NCBI GenBank assembly: GCA_002869535.1
Contig: PKUK01000001.1
Coordinates: 248,001 to 312,000, forward strand
Source of the DNA: Arcobacter sp.
GTDB lineage: Bacteria; Campylobacterota; Campylobacteria; Campylobacterales; Arcobacteraceae
DNA length: 64,000 nt
Direction: 5' to 3'
Below the pieces are notes generated by a model. It worked only from the letters and a program-made list of their open reading frames with translations. It ran no database searches and had not been told where the DNA came from. Both the position numbers and the translations under genes were made by a program. This document shows, piece by piece, positions 15,991-26,000 of this stretch (positions are counted from its first letter, which is position 1; each line of letters begins with the position of its first letter).

Positions 15991-16266
15991 CTATTTCCCT
16001 ACTTTTTCTGCGATAGCATTAATGTCAGCGTCACTTAATCCTGTAACTTGACCTTTCATAAGACCTTTCATTGGTCCACCATAAGTTCCATCTTGATAAC
16101 CTTTTAAAGAAGATACGATATCCGCTTTACTCATATCACTAAGTACTTTAGATTTACCCATAGCAGCTTTTTCCCCATTTGCCCCATGACATGCAACACA
16201 TTTATCATATGGAGCTGCAAATGCAGCACATGCTAGAATTGAAGTTAAAAGTATAATTTTTTTCAT
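15991..16266 (-). CDS. Class I cytochrome c (tandem paralog)
   Basis: CVACHGANGEKAAMGKS; GGPMKGLMKGQ. Confidence 0.9.
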   Translation of the reverse strand: MKKIILLTSILACAAFAAPYDKCVACHGANGEKAAMGKSKVLSDMSKADIVSSLKGYQDGTYGGPMKGLMKGQVTGLSDADINAIAEKVGK

Positions 16267-16413: not shown

Positions 16414-16689
16414 TTATTTACCTATTTGTTCTGCAATAGCATTAATGTCAGCATCACTTAAAGTAATCACTTGACCTTTCATAAGACCTTTCATTGGACC
16501 ACCATAAGTTCCATCTTTATAACCTTTTAGTGAAGCAACAATATCAGCTTTTGACATATCTTTTATTATTTTTGATTTACCTAACGCCGCTTTTTCACCA
16601 TTTGCACCATGGCAACCAGCACATTTTGTATATGGACTAGCAAATGATACACATGCTAAGATTGTTGTAAGAAGTAAGATTTTTTTCAT
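16414..16689 (-). CDS. Class I cytochrome c (tandem paralog)
   Basis: CAGCHGANGEKAALGKS; GGPMKGLMKGQ. Confidence 0.9.
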   Translation of the reverse strand: MKKILLLTTILACVSFASPYTKCAGCHGANGEKAALGKSKIIKDMSKADIVASLKGYKDGTYGGPMKGLMKGQVITLSDADINAIAEQIGK

Positions 16690-16768: not shown

Positions 16769-16798
16769 TATCTAATATAGCAATTGCTATATTAGATA
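16769..16798. repeat. Perfect 30-bp palindrome overlapping the stop of the AMP-ligase gene
   Basis: TATCTAATATAGCAATTGCTATATTAGATA. Confidence 0.95.
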
Positions 16799-18366
16799 GT
16801 TTCTAAAATCTCTTTTTTTAGTTCTTGTTTGTTGAATTTATTTTTATCACTAGGAATTAGTGGTAAAGATTTCTTATATACAATTTTAGATGGAATCATA
16901 TATGAAGCTAGATGTTTTTTTAGTTCAAAAGTTATCTCTTTTGCAGATAATTCACTTCTTGCACTATATACTAAAACAATCTCTTCTTCAATATCTGGAT
17001 TATCTATTGAAAATACTGCACACTGTTCTATTTGAGGTATATTATTTATAACAACTGATTCAACTTCAAAAGGACTTACTCTAAATCCTCTTGTTTTAAT
17101 CATATCATCGTGTCTTGATACAAAATAGATATATCCCTCTTCATCTTTATAAACATAATCTCCAGTTTTTACAACAACTTCATCCCTTAGCTGTCCTTCA
17201 AGATTGATTACATTTTTTAATATATCAATTGATTTGAATCTTTGTTCTGTTTCTAAAGGAGCATTCCAAAAGCCTTTATAAATATATCCACCTCTGTGAA
17301 TTAGTTCACCTACAACTCTTGGTTCACACTCTTTTCCTTCTTCATCTATAACATATAGTTCAACATCAGGAATTGATTTTCCAATTGAAGTTGGTCTTAT
17401 GTTTATTTGGCTTGGGTCTAAGTAAGTTGATCTAAATGCTTCTGTTAAGCCATGCATTGAGAAAAACTTAGCACTTGTAAAATATTTTTGTACGTCAGTT
17501 AACATTTTAGGAGTCACATTACCACCTGATGAAGTGATAATTCTAACATTAGCTAGTAATTCAGCACTTGGAAGTCTGTGTGAGTCTTCATCAAACATTT
17601 GAGTGATATTTATAGGCATAAGAGGAATAACAGTAACATTATCATTAATTAAGTGATTGAAAAAGTCACTTGCAAGTATAAATCTATGTAGTGCTAAAGT
17701 TGCTCTTTTATATAAAGAACAAAAAATTTGATTTAAACCATAATCTAAGTTAAATAATAAAATTCCAGATATTACATCATCCTCTTCTAAACTTAAATAG
17801 TGAGATACAACTCTTGCACTGTCTATTAAGTTTCTATGTGAGATAACTATACCTTTTGGGGTTCCTGTTATTCCAAATGAGTAAGTAATAACTGCATTAT
17901 CATGACCATTTATTTGACATGTATATGGTTTATTATAGTATTTGAAAATCTCTTCAAATGATGGTATATCTTTATGCGTTGTTTCATAAGAGATAATATG
18001 ACCATCAAATTTAATCTCTTCTATTGATTCAAGTTTTAATTTATCTGTAATAATACACTTAATATCACAATCTTTAATTATATATTCCACTTGTTCTGGT
18101 TTAAGTAACTTTGTAAGAGTAACAAGTACATAATCTGTAGATAAAATAGAAAGTATGGCAATTACTTGCTCAATACCTTTATTTGAATAGATACCAATTC
18201 TACTTCCTTTTGGTAAATCTAACTCATTTAGATAAAAAGCTACTTGATTTACTTTTGTAAGTAAATCACTATATGTAAGGCTTTTTTCATTTAGGACTAA
18301 AGCATTTTTATTTGGATGTGAGATTGCAGCATCTTCAATTAATCTTCTAATACAATTTATAGACAT
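16792..18366 (-). CDS. AMP-dependent (acyl/aminoacyl) synthetase/ligase
   Basis: YSFGITGTPKGIVISH (P-loop-like), SMHGLTEAFRS, VVKTGDYVYKDEEGYIYFVSRHDDMIKTRGFRVSPFEVE, NKFNKQELKK. Confidence 0.9.
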   Translation of the reverse strand: MSINCIRRLIEDAAISHPNKNALVLNEKSLTYSDLLTKVNQVAFYLNELDLPKGSRIGIYSNKGIEQVIAILSILSTDYVLVTLTKLLKPEQVEYIIKDCDIKCIITDKLKLESIEEIKFDGHIISYETTHKDIPSFEEIFKYYNKPYTCQINGHDNAVITYSFGITGTPKGIVISHRNLIDSARVVSHYLSLEEDDVISGILLFNLDYGLNQIFCSLYKRATLALHRFILASDFFNHLINDNVTVIPLMPINITQMFDEDSHRLPSAELLANVRIITSSGGNVTPKMLTDVQKYFTSAKFFSMHGLTEAFRSTYLDPSQINIRPTSIGKSIPDVELYVIDEEGKECEPRVVGELIHRGGYIYKGFWNAPLETEQRFKSIDILKNVINLEGQLRDEVVVKTGDYVYKDEEGYIYFVSRHDDMIKTRGFRVSPFEVESVVINNIPQIEQCAVFSIDNPDIEEEIVLVYSARSELSAKEITFELKKHLASYMIPSKIVYKKSLPLIPSDKNKFNKQELKKEILETI

Positions 18367-18376
18367 CTTTTATCCT

Positions 18377-19567
18377 TTAATATTGAGTTAAACCAAGAGT
18401 CCAAATGTCGTAATTTGTATCCATTACAACACTTGGATTATGGTTTGAGTTTAGAATTTTTTTATAAAAAAATGAGATGATATCTTCAATCTCTTCTTGT
18501 GATAAAACTTTTGTTATACCACCTGTTAAAACTAAACTATTAAGTGATAATAGCTTTAAGTTTACATAGGCTTTTCTATAGTGTGATACTTTACATAAAA
18601 CTAAGAATATCGCAAGTTGCATTAATATTCTCAAAGCTTTTTCACTTTGTTCATCAAAGATATTTTCTGTAACTTTTAAGTGTGATAGTAGTTCATAAAC
18701 AAACTCATTGTTTTTGGCACTAAATATTAATGATTCTTTTGATTTAAAAACACCAAGTTTTTTAAATACAAGTCTATCATATTCATTTGTTGTAACTAAA
18801 TTATCATCAACTAAATCTTTAGAGTAGTGAATATCAGTTGTAGCTCCTCCAATATCTATAAGAATATAAGGGTCCACAACTGAAAATTTTGTATCAATAT
18901 ATGGTAAAGTTTTATTAACTATATATGGAGTAGAGTATATTTGATTTGATGTTATCTCATAAAGGTGTTTGATATCTTCTTTACCCATAATATCAGCTTG
19001 ATAAAGGTTTGTTAAATACTCTTTTAAATGCTCTTCTACAATATGAAGTTTATCATCAATTACATTTGGTAAAACAACTAGATTTTCTATATGTTTTTGA
19101 AGATTATCACTATCTTTTGAACTTCCCACATATACAATATTTGAATACTTGATTTTTTCTAAATAATCAAATAACTCTTTTCCAAAGATGTTTGAAACAG
19201 AATCTATTCCACCAACTACAATAACAACATCTATTAAATCACTTGGAATTGAAGAGGTCTCTATATCTTGGTATAAAACAGTATCAATAATATTAATTCC
19301 AGAGTTAAAGGCAATATTTGTAGCATATTTAAGTGAAAAAGAGTTTGTAACACCAATAATAAGAGTACTTAAACCTCCATTTGCAGATGAACAAATATAA
19401 ACATTATCTTTTTCATAAGTTTTAATTGTATCACCACATTTGTAAGTTAAATCATCATAAATATCTTTATTAAAATCTCTAAAGTGCTGTTCAACACCTT
19501 GGGCAGAACTAACTTTAAAATAAGTACTTCCTACATCAATTAGTAGTTTGTTATTTAATTGGCTCAT
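18377..19567 (-). CDS. glmL: Glutamate mutase MutL/GlmL-type accessory (ASKHA) protein
   Basis: LLIDVGSTYFKVS...ILIDIGGATTDIHY; overlaps the mutase E gene by ATGA. Confidence 0.85.
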   Translation of the reverse strand: MSQLNNKLLIDVGSTYFKVSSAQGVEQHFRDFNKDIYDDLTYKCGDTIKTYEKDNVYICSSANGGLSTLIIGVTNSFSLKYATNIAFNSGINIIDTVLYQDIETSSIPSDLIDVVIVVGGIDSVSNIFGKELFDYLEKIKYSNIVYVGSSKDSDNLQKHIENLVVLPNVIDDKLHIVEEHLKEYLTNLYQADIMGKEDIKHLYEITSNQIYSTPYIVNKTLPYIDTKFSVVDPYILIDIGGATTDIHYSKDLVDDNLVTTNEYDRLVFKKLGVFKSKESLIFSAKNNEFVYELLSHLKVTENIFDEQSEKALRILMQLAIFLVLCKVSHYRKAYVNLKLLSLNSLVLTGGITKVLSQEEIEDIISFFYKKILNSNHNPSVVMDTNYDIWTLGLTQY

Positions 19568-20928
19568 TGCATAATTCCTATATCGTGGATAATATCATTT
19601 ACTATAGATGTAGTGTCTTTTTTAAGGTCACATTTTGATTTTTCATATTCAAAACATTTGTCAGGAATTGGAACACTTCCTCTTTTTATGATTCTGATAT
19701 TTTTATTTGCATCTCTTATTGTAATCATTTCATTATGGTTTATAATGTGAGGAGAAAAAGGTACATCTATTATTCCATTTTTGATACTATTAAATACTTT
19801 TCTCCATAAAGTGTCAGCACTATCATTAAACACAGCTTCCATGATAGCTTTAACTTCTGCTGTTAAATTCTCTTCTTCTTCTGTATCAACCACATTTGGA
19901 AGACCATTTAGAATTCTAAGAAGATATTGTGTGTTTGCAACTGTTTCAGCATTTGCTTCTTTTGTAGTAATTCCTGAAGCCTCTTGTTTTGTTTTAGTGA
20001 TAATCTTATCAGCTCCAACCATAGCTGCAATGGCAGTTGACATAGAGATAAGTTGTGATGCAAAGTTTTGATCCATAGGAAAAGCACCCATCCATTGGTG
20101 ATATACTAAATGAACCTCAGCATCTCCACAATTAATTTCTTTTGCATAATATTTAGCAAGTTTTCTTATAACTGCACCAGTTACGATATCTTGATTCATA
20201 CTTCCACTTTGTGAAAAAGACACAGAGAATGATTTAACCCCTTCTTCAAGTGATAAAAGCATCTCAAGAAGTTGAATTACAATAGTAATACATGGAGGAA
20301 CTAGTGTTGCAGTTAGTGGTCCAAATGATTCTCTATTTATTGGTTCATTTAATGTTGAGTATTTAGCACAAACTCTTTCAACATATTTCCAATATAAAAA
20401 AGCTTTATCTAATGGAAAGTTTTTAGAGTAGGGTAAAAGATAAGTAATAGGACCACCTTCTATCTCAAAAATACCTGAAGCAATTGCTGTTTCAATTAAT
20501 AGTCTAGCATCAGGAGTTCCATGTCTAAGTGATACTGGTTTGTTAAAATGAGTAATCATCTTTCTAGTAGTTCTATATCCATGGTTAACTAGTGGATAAC
20601 CATTTAGCATATCAACTTCACTCTCTTCAGAGAGTCTTAGCATCTTCTTAGCTGTTGCATAGTCATTTAATCTTGTATTTGAATCAATAGTACAAGGTAA
20701 TACATCAACATTTGCATCTACAAAAAACTCATACAGTGCATACATTTTGTTATATGTTGGAAAACCACCACGTGGTTGTACTAGCATTTTGTTTTTTGTT
20801 CTAAAGTTATGTGAAATAAATAGGTCTTTTGAGGCATTTTTAACAAACTCTTCAACCTCAGCAAAGTCAAAATGCTCTACATATTCATTACTTAAAATTA
20901 TCTCTCGTTCTTCTTGTAATAAACTCAT
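19564..20928 (-). CDS. glmE: Methylaspartate (glutamate) mutase catalytic subunit E-like
   Basis: QPRGGFPTYNKMYALYEF, NGYPLVNHGYRTTRK, SLRHGTPDARLL, KTKQEASGITTKEANAET. Confidence 0.9.
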   Translation of the reverse strand: MSLLQEEREIILSNEYVEHFDFAEVEEFVKNASKDLFISHNFRTKNKMLVQPRGGFPTYNKMYALYEFFVDANVDVLPCTIDSNTRLNDYATAKKMLRLSEESEVDMLNGYPLVNHGYRTTRKMITHFNKPVSLRHGTPDARLLIETAIASGIFEIEGGPITYLLPYSKNFPLDKAFLYWKYVERVCAKYSTLNEPINRESFGPLTATLVPPCITIVIQLLEMLLSLEEGVKSFSVSFSQSGSMNQDIVTGAVIRKLAKYYAKEINCGDAEVHLVYHQWMGAFPMDQNFASQLISMSTAIAAMVGADKIITKTKQEASGITTKEANAETVANTQYLLRILNGLPNVVDTEEEENLTAEVKAIMEAVFNDSADTLWRKVFNSIKNGIIDVPFSPHIINHNEMITIRDANKNIRIIKRGSVPIPDKCFEYEKSKCDLKKDTTSIVNDIIHDIGIMQ

Positions 20929-21335
20929 GATTCTCTCGTTTTTAAATATTTTTCTAATTCATCTAAACCAGTATTTAAATCCACTTGATGAAATACCAAA
21001 TCAAAACCATAGTTTTTAAATTTTGGCACAATAGTTGAAGCATCACCAGTTCCAACTACTAAGTTTCCACCAATCATAAAAACTACATTATCTAAGTTTT
21101 TATATTTTGATTTAAGTATCTTTACTTCTCTACACCAGCCTTCTGCTTCGCCATTTAGAGAAGAGATTAATAGTACATCTGCATTGGTTTCTACTACAGC
21201 ATCAAAGAACTCTTCAAGATAAGTATTAACCCCAAGGTTAAACACTTCAAATCCTCTTGCTTGTAATGAAAGATCAATTAGTCTATTTGCTACAACGTGT
21301 ATATCGTTTCCTACAACGCCTGTTACTACTTTCAT
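20925..21335 (-). CDS. glmS: Methylaspartate (glutamate) mutase B12-binding subunit S-like
   Basis: VTGVVGNDIHVVANRL (variant DxHxxG), LLISSLNGEAEG, MIGGNLVVG; 4-bp overlap with the E subunit. Confidence 0.85.
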   Translation of the reverse strand: MKVVTGVVGNDIHVVANRLIDLSLQARGFEVFNLGVNTYLEEFFDAVVETNADVLLISSLNGEAEGWCREVKILKSKYKNLDNVVFMIGGNLVVGTGDASTIVPKFKNYGFDLVFHQVDLNTGLDELEKYLKTRES

Positions 21336-21434: not shown

Positions 21435-22127
21435 ATGAAAACAAAAATATATTTAATACCAGGTTTTATGAATAATGAAAAATTGTGGAGTAGGTTAATA
21501 CCTCTTTTTGATGATAGTTATGAGTTTATTCATCTTGAAATTCCTTTAGAAGATAGTTTTGATAAGATTGTTGAAGTTATAGATAAAAGAATCGATGACC
21601 AAGTGATTAATCTATTGGGTTTTTCCTTAGGTGGTTATATTGCTTGTTATTTTGGATTGAAGTATCCAAATAGAGTCAATAAAATACTTGCTGTTGCTTG
21701 TACTCCAGCAAACTTAAGTGCAAAAGAGTCCCAAAAAAGAAGAGAAGCTATTGAGTTTACAAAAAAATTTGGCTTCAAGGGACTTAGTAGAAAAAAAGCC
21801 ATAAGTTTAGTTGAACCACATAATCAAAATGATGATGAGTTGATTGATTTACTCTTACAGATGTATGTTGATATAGGTGAAGAGGCTTTTTATTCTCAAT
21901 TTATGGCAACAATAATAAGAGAAGACTTATGTGATAAACTAATAAATAGTAATTTAAAACTATCATTTTTTTATGCTTGGGAAGATAGGATGGTAAGTAG
22001 AGAGTTTATGGAAGAGTTTTCTAAAAAAGCAAAGAATATTGACTTTACGCAAATTGAGGCAAAAACACATATGCTACCACTTGAAAGACAAAAAGAGTTA
22101 TCAATTAAGATTAAAGATTGGTTTTAA
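21435..22127 (+). CDS. Alpha/beta hydrolase
   Basis: LIPGFMNNEKLW, LLGFSLGGYIACYFGLKYP nucleophile elbow, terminal His KTHMLPLER. Confidence 0.85.
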   Translation: MKTKIYLIPGFMNNEKLWSRLIPLFDDSYEFIHLEIPLEDSFDKIVEVIDKRIDDQVINLLGFSLGGYIACYFGLKYPNRVNKILAVACTPANLSAKESQKRREAIEFTKKFGFKGLSRKKAISLVEPHNQNDDELIDLLLQMYVDIGEEAFYSQFMATIIREDLCDKLINSNLKLSFFYAWEDRMVSREFMEEFSKKAKNIDFTQIEAKTHMLPLERQKELSIKIKDWF

Positions 22128-22198: not shown

Positions 22199-22678
22199 AT
22201 GGATTTTTTTACAGCAGACTTATGTGACCAACACCCTGACAAAACTTATTTACTAGATAATGAATTTAAAAACTATGGTGGAAAAGAAAAAGTTTATGGT
22301 GAAGTTGTTACTGTTAAGCTTGATAGAAATAATAGTGAACTTATTAAACTACTCAGGGATGAGTCTGGAAAAGGTAAAATTGTTGTAGTTGATGTATCAG
22401 ATGAATATTTTGCAGTTGTCGGTGAAAATCTTATGAAGTTTGCTGCTAATAACAATTATGAGGGAATTATAGTTAATGGGTATGTAAGAGATACCTTTCA
22501 GATAAAAGATATACCAGTTGCCCTATATGCAAGAGGAACTTGCAGTAGAAAGTATATTCCTGAAACTCAAGGAGAAAGAGGTATCGATATATCTTTTGGT
22601 GGAGTAAATTTTTGTGAGGGTGATATTGTATATGCAGATAGGGATGGAATAATATTATCAAAAGAGAGTTTATTTTAG
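22199..22678 (+). CDS. rraA: RraA-like family protein
   Basis: TADLCDQHPDK, GIIVNGYVRDTFQIKDIPVALYARGTCSRK. Confidence 0.85.
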   Translation: MDFFTADLCDQHPDKTYLLDNEFKNYGGKEKVYGEVVTVKLDRNNSELIKLLRDESGKGKIVVVDVSDEYFAVVGENLMKFAANNNYEGIIVNGYVRDTFQIKDIPVALYARGTCSRKYIPETQGERGIDISFGGVNFCEGDIVYADRDGIILSKESLF

Positions 22679-23906: not shown

Positions 23907-26000
23907 ATGAATTATAACTGGAAGACTATAGATTTAAATAACGGAACAGTAGAAGAAAAAAGAGAAGAGATAAAACAATATTTTTTACAAACATATGAAT
24001 TAGATGAAAAGCTCTTTGATTTATTAGAAGATAAAAAGCATATATTAGAGCAACCAAATAGGTTAAGACATCCCCTAATATTTTATTTTGGACATACAGC
24101 TACTTTTTTTATGAATAAACTAAATGTATCAAATATTACAAGTAAAAGAGTTAATAAAACTTATGAAGCCTTATTTGCAATAGGTGTTGATGAGATGAGT
24201 TGGGATGATTTAAATGATGAGAATTATCAATGGCCAACATATGAAGAGACAAAAGCATATAGGGATGAGGTGAAAGCACTAGTATTAGAGCTTATTGATA
24301 CTATTGAGTTTGCTATTCCTATTAATTGGAATTCTCCTATGTGGGTTATACTTATGGGAATAGAACATGAGAATATACATATAGAGACTTCATCTGTACT
24401 ACTTAGAGAACTAGATATAAAATACTTTAAAGATGATGAACTATTTACTTATAATAATGAAGGAAGTCAAACATATCCTCAAAATGAATTAGTAGCAGTA
24501 GAGAGTGGAGAAGTATTACTTGAAAAAGAACACAATAAACCAGAGTATTATGGATGGGATAATGAGTTTGCTTTCCATAAGGCAGATATTAAAGAGTTTA
24601 AAGCTAGTAAGTATTTAGTATCAAATGGTGAGTTCTTAGAGTTTGTAAAAGAGGGTGGTTATAACAAACTACATTACTTTAGTAAAGATGGATTGAAGTG
24701 GTTAGACTTTACACAAAGTAAGATGCCAGTATTTTGGATAAAAAAAGAAGATAAATACTATTTAAGAGAGATAAATAGAGTAGTAGAGTTACCTTTAAAT
24801 TATCCTGTTGATATAAACGTATATGAAGCAGAAGCTTTTTGTAAGTATAAGAGTGAAGAATTAGGTTATGAAGTTAGACTTCCAAGTGAAGATGAGTTTT
24901 ATAGATTAAATGATTATGTAAAAGCACAAGAGTGTGAGGCAAACATAGGATTAAAGTATTTTAATCAAACACCAGTGGATAAATATCCTATGGGTGAGTT
25001 TTATGATGTTATTGGAAATGTATGGCAGTGGAGTATAACTCCTATGTATCCGCTTGATGGATTTGAAACACATCCTGTATATGATGACTTTACAACTCCT
25101 ACTTTTGATGATAGACATGCTTTAATGAAAGGTGGATCATTTATTAGTTTAGGAAATGAGACATTAAGAAGTGCAAGATATGCCTTTAGAAAGCATTTTT
25201 TCCAACATGCTGGATTTAGATATGTTAAAAGTGAAAATGAGTACAGAACTAGGTTAAACGATAATGTATATGAAACAGATGAACAGATTTCTCAGTATTG
25301 TGAGTTTCATTATGGAGAAGAGAGTTTTTGTGTTAAGAACTTCACAAAAACTTCTGTTGAAGTGTTAAAACCTTATTTAGAAAATATCAAAAAAGATAAA
25401 GCACTTGATTTAGGTTGTAGTGTGGGAAGAAGTTCTTTTGAGCTTGGAAAAATATTTGATGAGGTATTAGGAATAGACTTTAGTGCTAACTTTATTAGTG
25501 TAGGAATAAAACTTAAAAAATATGATAGTCTAACTTTCAAAGTAGCAACAGAAGGTGAGTTATATGAAGAGAAAACAGTAGCCCTAAAAGATTTTGATTT
25601 GGAAGAAATCAAAGAGAGAGTTACCTTTATGCAAGGTGATGCTTGTAATTTAAAAGATATCTATACAGCATATGATTTGATTTTTTGTTCAAACTTGATT
25701 GATAGGTTATATTATCCTCAAAAATTCTTAGATGATATACCAAATAGAGTAAATAAAGATGGTCTTTTAGTACTATTAAGTCCATATACTTGGCTTGAAG
25801 CCTATACTCCAAAACAAAACTGGTTAGGTGGATATGTTAGAGATAATAAAGAGGTAAAAACTTTAGATACATTAAAAGAAAACCTTAGTGATAGATTCGA
25901 ACTTCTTGATACTATTGATGTTCCTTTTGTGATAAAAGAGACAGCAAGAAAACATCAACATACAATATCTCAAATGAGTATTTGGAAAAAAATTAAATAG
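23907..26000 (+). CDS. ovoA: 5-histidylcysteine sulfoxide synthase / mercaptohistidine methyltransferase (ovothiol biosynthesis)
   Basis: DinB-like N-terminus (IFYFGHTATFF, GIEHENIHIETSS), FGE-sulfatase-like core (GNVWQWSITPMYPLDGF...GGSFISLGNETLRSARYAFRKHFFQHAGFRYV), C-terminal SAM methyltransferase (ALDLGCSVGRSSFELG). Confidence 0.92.
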   Translation: MNYNWKTIDLNNGTVEEKREEIKQYFLQTYELDEKLFDLLEDKKHILEQPNRLRHPLIFYFGHTATFFMNKLNVSNITSKRVNKTYEALFAIGVDEMSWDDLNDENYQWPTYEETKAYRDEVKALVLELIDTIEFAIPINWNSPMWVILMGIEHENIHIETSSVLLRELDIKYFKDDELFTYNNEGSQTYPQNELVAVESGEVLLEKEHNKPEYYGWDNEFAFHKADIKEFKASKYLVSNGEFLEFVKEGGYNKLHYFSKDGLKWLDFTQSKMPVFWIKKEDKYYLREINRVVELPLNYPVDINVYEAEAFCKYKSEELGYEVRLPSEDEFYRLNDYVKAQECEANIGLKYFNQTPVDKYPMGEFYDVIGNVWQWSITPMYPLDGFETHPVYDDFTTPTFDDRHALMKGGSFISLGNETLRSARYAFRKHFFQHAGFRYVKSENEYRTRLNDNVYETDEQISQYCEFHYGEESFCVKNFTKTSVEVLKPYLENIKKDKALDLGCSVGRSSFELGKIFDEVLGIDFSANFISVGIKLKKYDSLTFKVATEGELYEEKTVALKDFDLEEIKERVTFMQGDACNLKDIYTAYDLIFCSNLIDRLYYPQKFLDDIPNRVNKDGLLVLLSPYTWLEAYTPKQNWLGGYVRDNKEVKTLDTLKENLSDRFELLDTIDVPFVIKETARKHQHTISQMSIWKKIK

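Follow-up and report, generated by a model that had tools for sequence, protein, structure and literature searches.

A B12-dependent glutamate mutase-type gene set with VinN-like ligase and RraA-like partners in Campylobacterota and gammaproteobacteria: a predicted 3-methylaspartate module

Genes for a glutamate mutase-type enzyme that run directly into a gene for an AMP-forming ligase raise the question of what the mutase makes and what the ligase does with it. Such a gene set lies in a 64,000 nt stretch of Arcobacter sp. (GCA_002869535.1, PKUK01000001.1, positions 248,001-312,000, forward strand), here called the window. An earlier note on this DNA had described four ORFs (S, E, L and a ligase) and proposed an uncharacterised pathway in which the mutase product is adenylated and transferred. 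The four ORFs are where the note had placed them, on the minus strand, and the S/E and E/L overlaps of 4 bp each (ATGA) were confirmed. The ligase does follow shortly after L; the gap, given as 11 bp, is about 10 bp (9-10), a trivial difference. A divergent RraA-like gene had been overlooked. The features are:

20925-21335, minus strand: S, glmS/mutS-like B12-binding sigma subunit (136 aa; PF02310, NF002612)
19564-20928, minus strand: E, glmE/mutE-like catalytic epsilon subunit (454 aa; PF06368)
18377-19567, minus strand: L, glmL/mutL-like putative mutase reactivase, ASKHA-type, divergent and short (396 aa; PF13941)
16792-18366, minus strand: ANL (AMP-forming) ligase with a VinN-like 3-methylaspartate pocket (524 aa; PF00501)
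16769-16798, minus strand: possible intrinsic terminator right after the ligase stop (13-pair hairpin, then a T-rich tail)
22199-22678, plus strand: RraA-like enzyme of the class II pyruvate aldolase/oxaloacetate decarboxylase family, divergent partner (159 aa; PF03737)

The terminator call is weak, since the region has 2 sites combining a hairpin and a T-rich tail and chance alone would give 1.5. Searches near the operon showed no riboswitch or other RNA family. An alpha/beta hydrolase gene (21435-22127, plus strand) stands between S and the RraA-like gene; it occupies that site only in this genome and in a genus mate and is outside the conserved module. Directly downstream of the ligase are two tandem small c-type cytochromes (15991-16266 and 16414-16689, minus strand), an arrangement confined among related loci to Arcobacteraceae. 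An OvoA-like protein (23907-26000, plus strand; DinB_2, FGE-sulfatase and methyltransferase domains), probably involved in ovothiol biosynthesis, is encoded here as well, and several Arcobacteraceae have one close to the RraA-like gene.

Mutase subunits and their predicted product

Profile searches for the mutase subunits and the ligase all returned matches to the expected families. E matched PF06368 with 390 bits and aligned over its length with the C. cochlearium enzyme (6h9e/1cb7, E-value 5e-81). Nine E positions, equivalent to Arg66, Arg100, Arg149, His150, Glu171, Tyr177, Tyr181, Lys326 and Glu330, are identical in all 127 homologues; these correspond to the glutamate-contact residues of the C. 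cochlearium glutamate mutase structures. Since all nine are kept, the mutase probably makes (2S,3S)-3-methylaspartate, as predicted from sequence.

The S subunit belongs to the B12-binding family PF02310, scored 167 bits against NF002612 (cut-off 110) and aligned with the C. cochlearium sigma subunit (1i9c, E-value 3.6e-21). Asp11 and His13 of its base-off motif (DxHxx) are invariant in 109 homologues. The full DxHxxG motif is not matched, the glycine being alanine in 109/109, and the NF002612 cut-off is still passed. SSLNGEAEG likewise replaces SSLYGxGE in all 109. The variants DIHVVA and SSLNGEAEG pointed out in the earlier note are thus real and, bar two I-to-V changes, fixed, which makes them a family signature and not a sign of decay. 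L matched PF13941 (MutL) with 97 bits (cut-off 27) and reached only 74 bits against NF040745 (cut-off 475). The label "divergent" given to the operon suits S, L and the ligase; it is weaker for E, which scored 377.6 bits against TIGR01503, below the cut-off of 390.1.

With subunits this canonical, conventional fermentation of glutamate through the methylaspartate pathway has to be weighed, with the gene for a generic acyl-CoA synthetase lying downstream by chance. A PF07476 search of the whole genome gave no match to methylaspartate ammonia-lyase, which extends the claimed absence of that gene from the neighbourhood to the genome. Among 38 module genomes, 17 had partial, weak enolase-type matches, and none was full-length in the 37 others. 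The lack of a detectable ammonia-lyase makes fermentation unlikely, and the ligase is strictly conserved and not of a generic kind. This explanation is considered very improbable.

The supply of the cofactor is a puzzle. Among tested Campylobacterota, searches with PF02572 and PF01923 found a corrinoid adenosyltransferase of the PduO/EutT type in 0 of 69 genomes and of the CobA type in 1 of 32, and many of the tested genomes carry an AdoCbl-dependent mutase. With the known enzymes not found, these cells would take up adenosylcobalamin or form it with an enzyme that has escaped recognition.

Conservation of the module and its RraA-like partner

Scanning a single genome for each species identified 80 loci in which E is 78-91% identical. 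Campylobacterota, gamma- and betaproteobacteria supply these loci, the hosts being Arcobacteraceae, Sulfurimonas, Colwellia, Vibrio, Oceanospirillaceae, Halieaceae, Granulosicoccaceae and Rhodoferax, besides one Rhodothermales MAG. The E-L-ligase order is intact in 73 of the 80, the other seven being at a contig edge or having a split ligase, so the neighbourhood of the four genes is conserved across genomes. The order is also kept in the majority of the distant Campylobacterota loci extracted. The genes flanking the module differ from group to group, which argues that the shared order is not simple synteny; outside Arcobacteraceae no conserved downstream gene was found. E is often 83-89% identical between Campylobacterota and gammaproteobacteria, and in an E tree (quick method, midpoint root) the gammaproteobacterial sequences are interspersed among Campylobacterota. 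This pattern is consistent with transfer of the module between phyla.

Gene content tells a similar story at the genome level. The ligase is present in 26 of 27 mutase-positive and 0 of 34 mutase-negative Campylobacterota genomes (uncorrected for ancestry). A ligase exception, genome G356, keeps RraA-S-E-L and lacks the ligase. The RraA-like gene accompanies the module in 67 of the 80 loci, usually divergently and directly beside S. Among 80 Campylobacterota genomes a close homologue occurs in all 34 with the mutase and in 3 of the 46 without it (Fisher p 1.8e-19, again uncorrected for ancestry), and it is retained also in mutase-positive genomes where it is unlinked to the module. No convincing extra pathway gene was seen beside the unlinked copies. 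One of the three RraA-positive, mutase-negative exceptions, G207, bears a deletion scar of the module (L148:8266-9476): RraA and S are intact and the first codons of E are fused to the ligase C-terminus.

The RraA-like protein matched PF03737 and scored 138.8 bits against NF006875, just above the cut-off of 136. The E/D-X20-R-D motif (E/D76, R97, D98) is found in 80/80 sequences; Mazurkewich in 2014 is said to have defined D/E-X20-R-D as the metal/catalytic motif of the metal-dependent HMG/CHA aldolases. In the RraA of E. coli the R-D site reads RQ. With the metal motif intact here, the protein is predicted more likely to be an enzyme than an RNase E regulator. A second RraA-like paralogue in the same genome, 57% identical, is unlinked to the module (G000:C5:88666-89139).

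The overlooked enzyme makes room for another pathway, as does an aspartate/aromatic aminotransferase gene found in 31 of the 80 loci, mostly beside RraA; in gammaproteobacteria it neighbours the module. In this main rival explanation, an aspartate-type aminotransferase would turn 3-methylaspartate into 3-methyloxaloacetate, which the RraA-like enzyme would decarboxylate. The resulting 2-oxobutyrate could feed isoleucine synthesis or serve other ends, with the ligase as a side branch. The HMG/CHA aldolase family also decarboxylates oxaloacetate (PMC5065237), and decarboxylation of 3-methyloxaloacetate by the RraA-like protein is a chemically simple possibility. The presence of RraA in every mutase-positive genome tested, linked or not, and the content of G356 would also fit. 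However, the ligase, conserved to almost the same degree, is left without a role, and no dedicated aminotransferase was seen in the Campylobacterota loci. Replacement of the usual isoleucine route by the module was considered and rejected: IlvA matches (E-value about 1e-150) occur in mutase-positive Campylobacterota and mutase-negative relatives alike, with no anticorrelation. Given these threonine dehydratase-like genes, there is no obvious need of the module for isoleucine supply. The 2-oxobutyrate route is judged unlikely; if true, it would provide candidate genes for conversion of glutamate to 2-oxobutyrate via methylaspartate.

The ligase and the favoured reading

The ligase matched PF00501 with 204 bits. 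Its nearest NCBIfam model is TIGR03098, against which it scored 426 bits and the module ligases as a whole 415-448 bits, below the cut-off of 592. For the pocket segment the top match among all PDB sequences was VinN (3WV4/3WV5/3WVN), the alignment being gapless across the beta13-beta14 loop, with the short loop kept. VinN activates 3-methylaspartate, and the roles of its pocket residues have been described (PMC11253843). VinN D230, S299 and R331 correspond to D208, S280 and R312 of the ligase, and F231 to Y209, a bulky aromatic residue though not Phe. All four ligase residues are invariant in 90/90 homologues. The equivalent of VinN K330 is Phe in 89 of the 90. The alignment around the A10 catalytic lysine is ambiguous, and neither of the possible registers shows a conserved lysine: position 508 is K in 64/90 and position 510 in 39/90, the residues being K, Q, R or E. 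An AlphaFold model (pLDDT 74.6, poor around the pocket) shows the general ANL fold only.

The pocket alone also fits a different substrate. VinN binds L-Asp as well (PMC11253843), and two true exosortase-associated ligases (TIGR03098) carry identical pocket motifs with no mutase adjacent. In Thalassotalea sp. ND16A (L173:230-3071) a TIGR03098 ligase with a VinN-like pocket is followed by a PLP decarboxylase (TIGR03099), a VinN/VinO-like pair which suggests that an acidic amino acid is activated by TIGR03098 ligases too. The module ligase might then load Asp, Glu or another acidic amino acid. The mutase and RraA would serve a separate step, and the operon would mix different biosynthetic genes on the way to a peptide-like compound or a signal molecule. 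Against this stand the genome-wide co-occurrence of ligase and mutase and their invariant adjacency, which point to the mutase product as the substrate of the ligase. This explanation is placed somewhat lower still than the 2-oxobutyrate route.

The favoured reading, rated slightly better than even, is that the five genes form a module for production and activation of 3-methylaspartate; it takes its reactions from the observed gene identity, order, co-occurrence and residues. S and E with adenosylcobalamin would convert L-glutamate to (2S,3S)-3-methylaspartate, and L would reactivate the mutase. The VinN-like ligase would take 3-methylaspartate as a beta-amino acid and convert its C4 carboxylate to an acyl-AMP, for passage to an acceptor encoded outside the operon (CoA, a carrier or an amine). 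The RraA-like metal enzyme would catalyse C-C lyase or aldol chemistry on a 2-oxo acid from this pathway. The principle of a glutamate mutase supplying 3-methylaspartate for a ligase of this kind to load has been described for biosynthesis (PMC10662134).

This genome yielded neither a VinO-type decarboxylase nor a carrier dedicated to the module, and the claim that no carrier lies nearby was upheld. Two candidates were rejected. The genome's second PLP decarboxylase adjoins a carboxynorspermidine synthase-like gene. Its second carrier protein belongs to an aryl-polyene-like cluster (L154, C1:84000-95870), which has an acyl carrier protein of its own alongside genes for a histidine ammonia-lyase-like and a ketosynthase-like protein. 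These absences count against the module reading, as do the Phe at K330, the unconserved A10 lysine, the ligase-free G356, an RraA-like protein without a defined substrate and the near-constant absence of a known corrinoid adenosyltransferase.

For the earlier proposal, which gains partial support, the link between ligase and mutase, with 3-methylaspartate as the likely compound to be activated, is backed by the conservation of the four genes, by a pocket search with VinN as best match and by the missing methylaspartate ammonia-lyase; both an ammonia-lyase elsewhere in the genome and a generic ligase unconnected to the mutase were looked for, and neither was found. Adenylation and transfer to an acceptor stay putative steps. 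The broader claim is put a little short of even: a widespread, horizontally moving marine pathway would lead from glutamate to a new 3-methylaspartate-derived small molecule with no more than five or six proteins. These would be the B12 mutase, the VinN-like ligase, the RraA-like lyase and, depending on the host, an aminotransferase, with no NRPS or PKS. Literature searches returned no description of this module. If the reading is true, a gene set of many marine Campylobacterota and gammaproteobacteria gains a function, vitamin B12 supply is linked to an undescribed metabolite, the RraA-like protein gains a testable metabolic partner, and VinN-type ligases extend beyond macrolactam antibiotics.

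Comparison with known systems

The module shares with clostridial GlmS/GlmE/GlmL the subunit set, the B12-binding Asp and His and the nine contact residues in E. It differs in having no methylaspartate ammonia-lyase, DxHxxA for DxHxxG, a short and divergent L, and fixed ligase and RraA partners.

The vicenistatin-type starter system consists of the VinH/VinI mutase, the VinN ligase, the VinL carrier and the VinO decarboxylase. Both systems pair a mutase with a ligase whose pocket has the VinN residues (D, an aromatic, S and R) and a short loop. However, the module lacks the carrier, decarboxylase, second ligase and PKS, has Phe for K330 and an RraA-like partner, and its hosts are in different phyla.

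The exosortase A-associated TIGR03098 (ligase_PEP_1) is the nearest named ligase family, with the pocket motifs DYG, SGG and GLTEAFRST in common. Unlike the TIGR03098/TIGR03099 pair, the module scores below cut-off, comes without exosortase or decarboxylase, and has an A10 motif that is not NGK. With the RraA/HMG-CHA aldolases (PF03737) the fold family and the E/D-X20-R-D metal/catalytic motif are shared, but here the protein is tied to a B12 mutase operon and not to the breakdown of aromatics or the control of RNase E.
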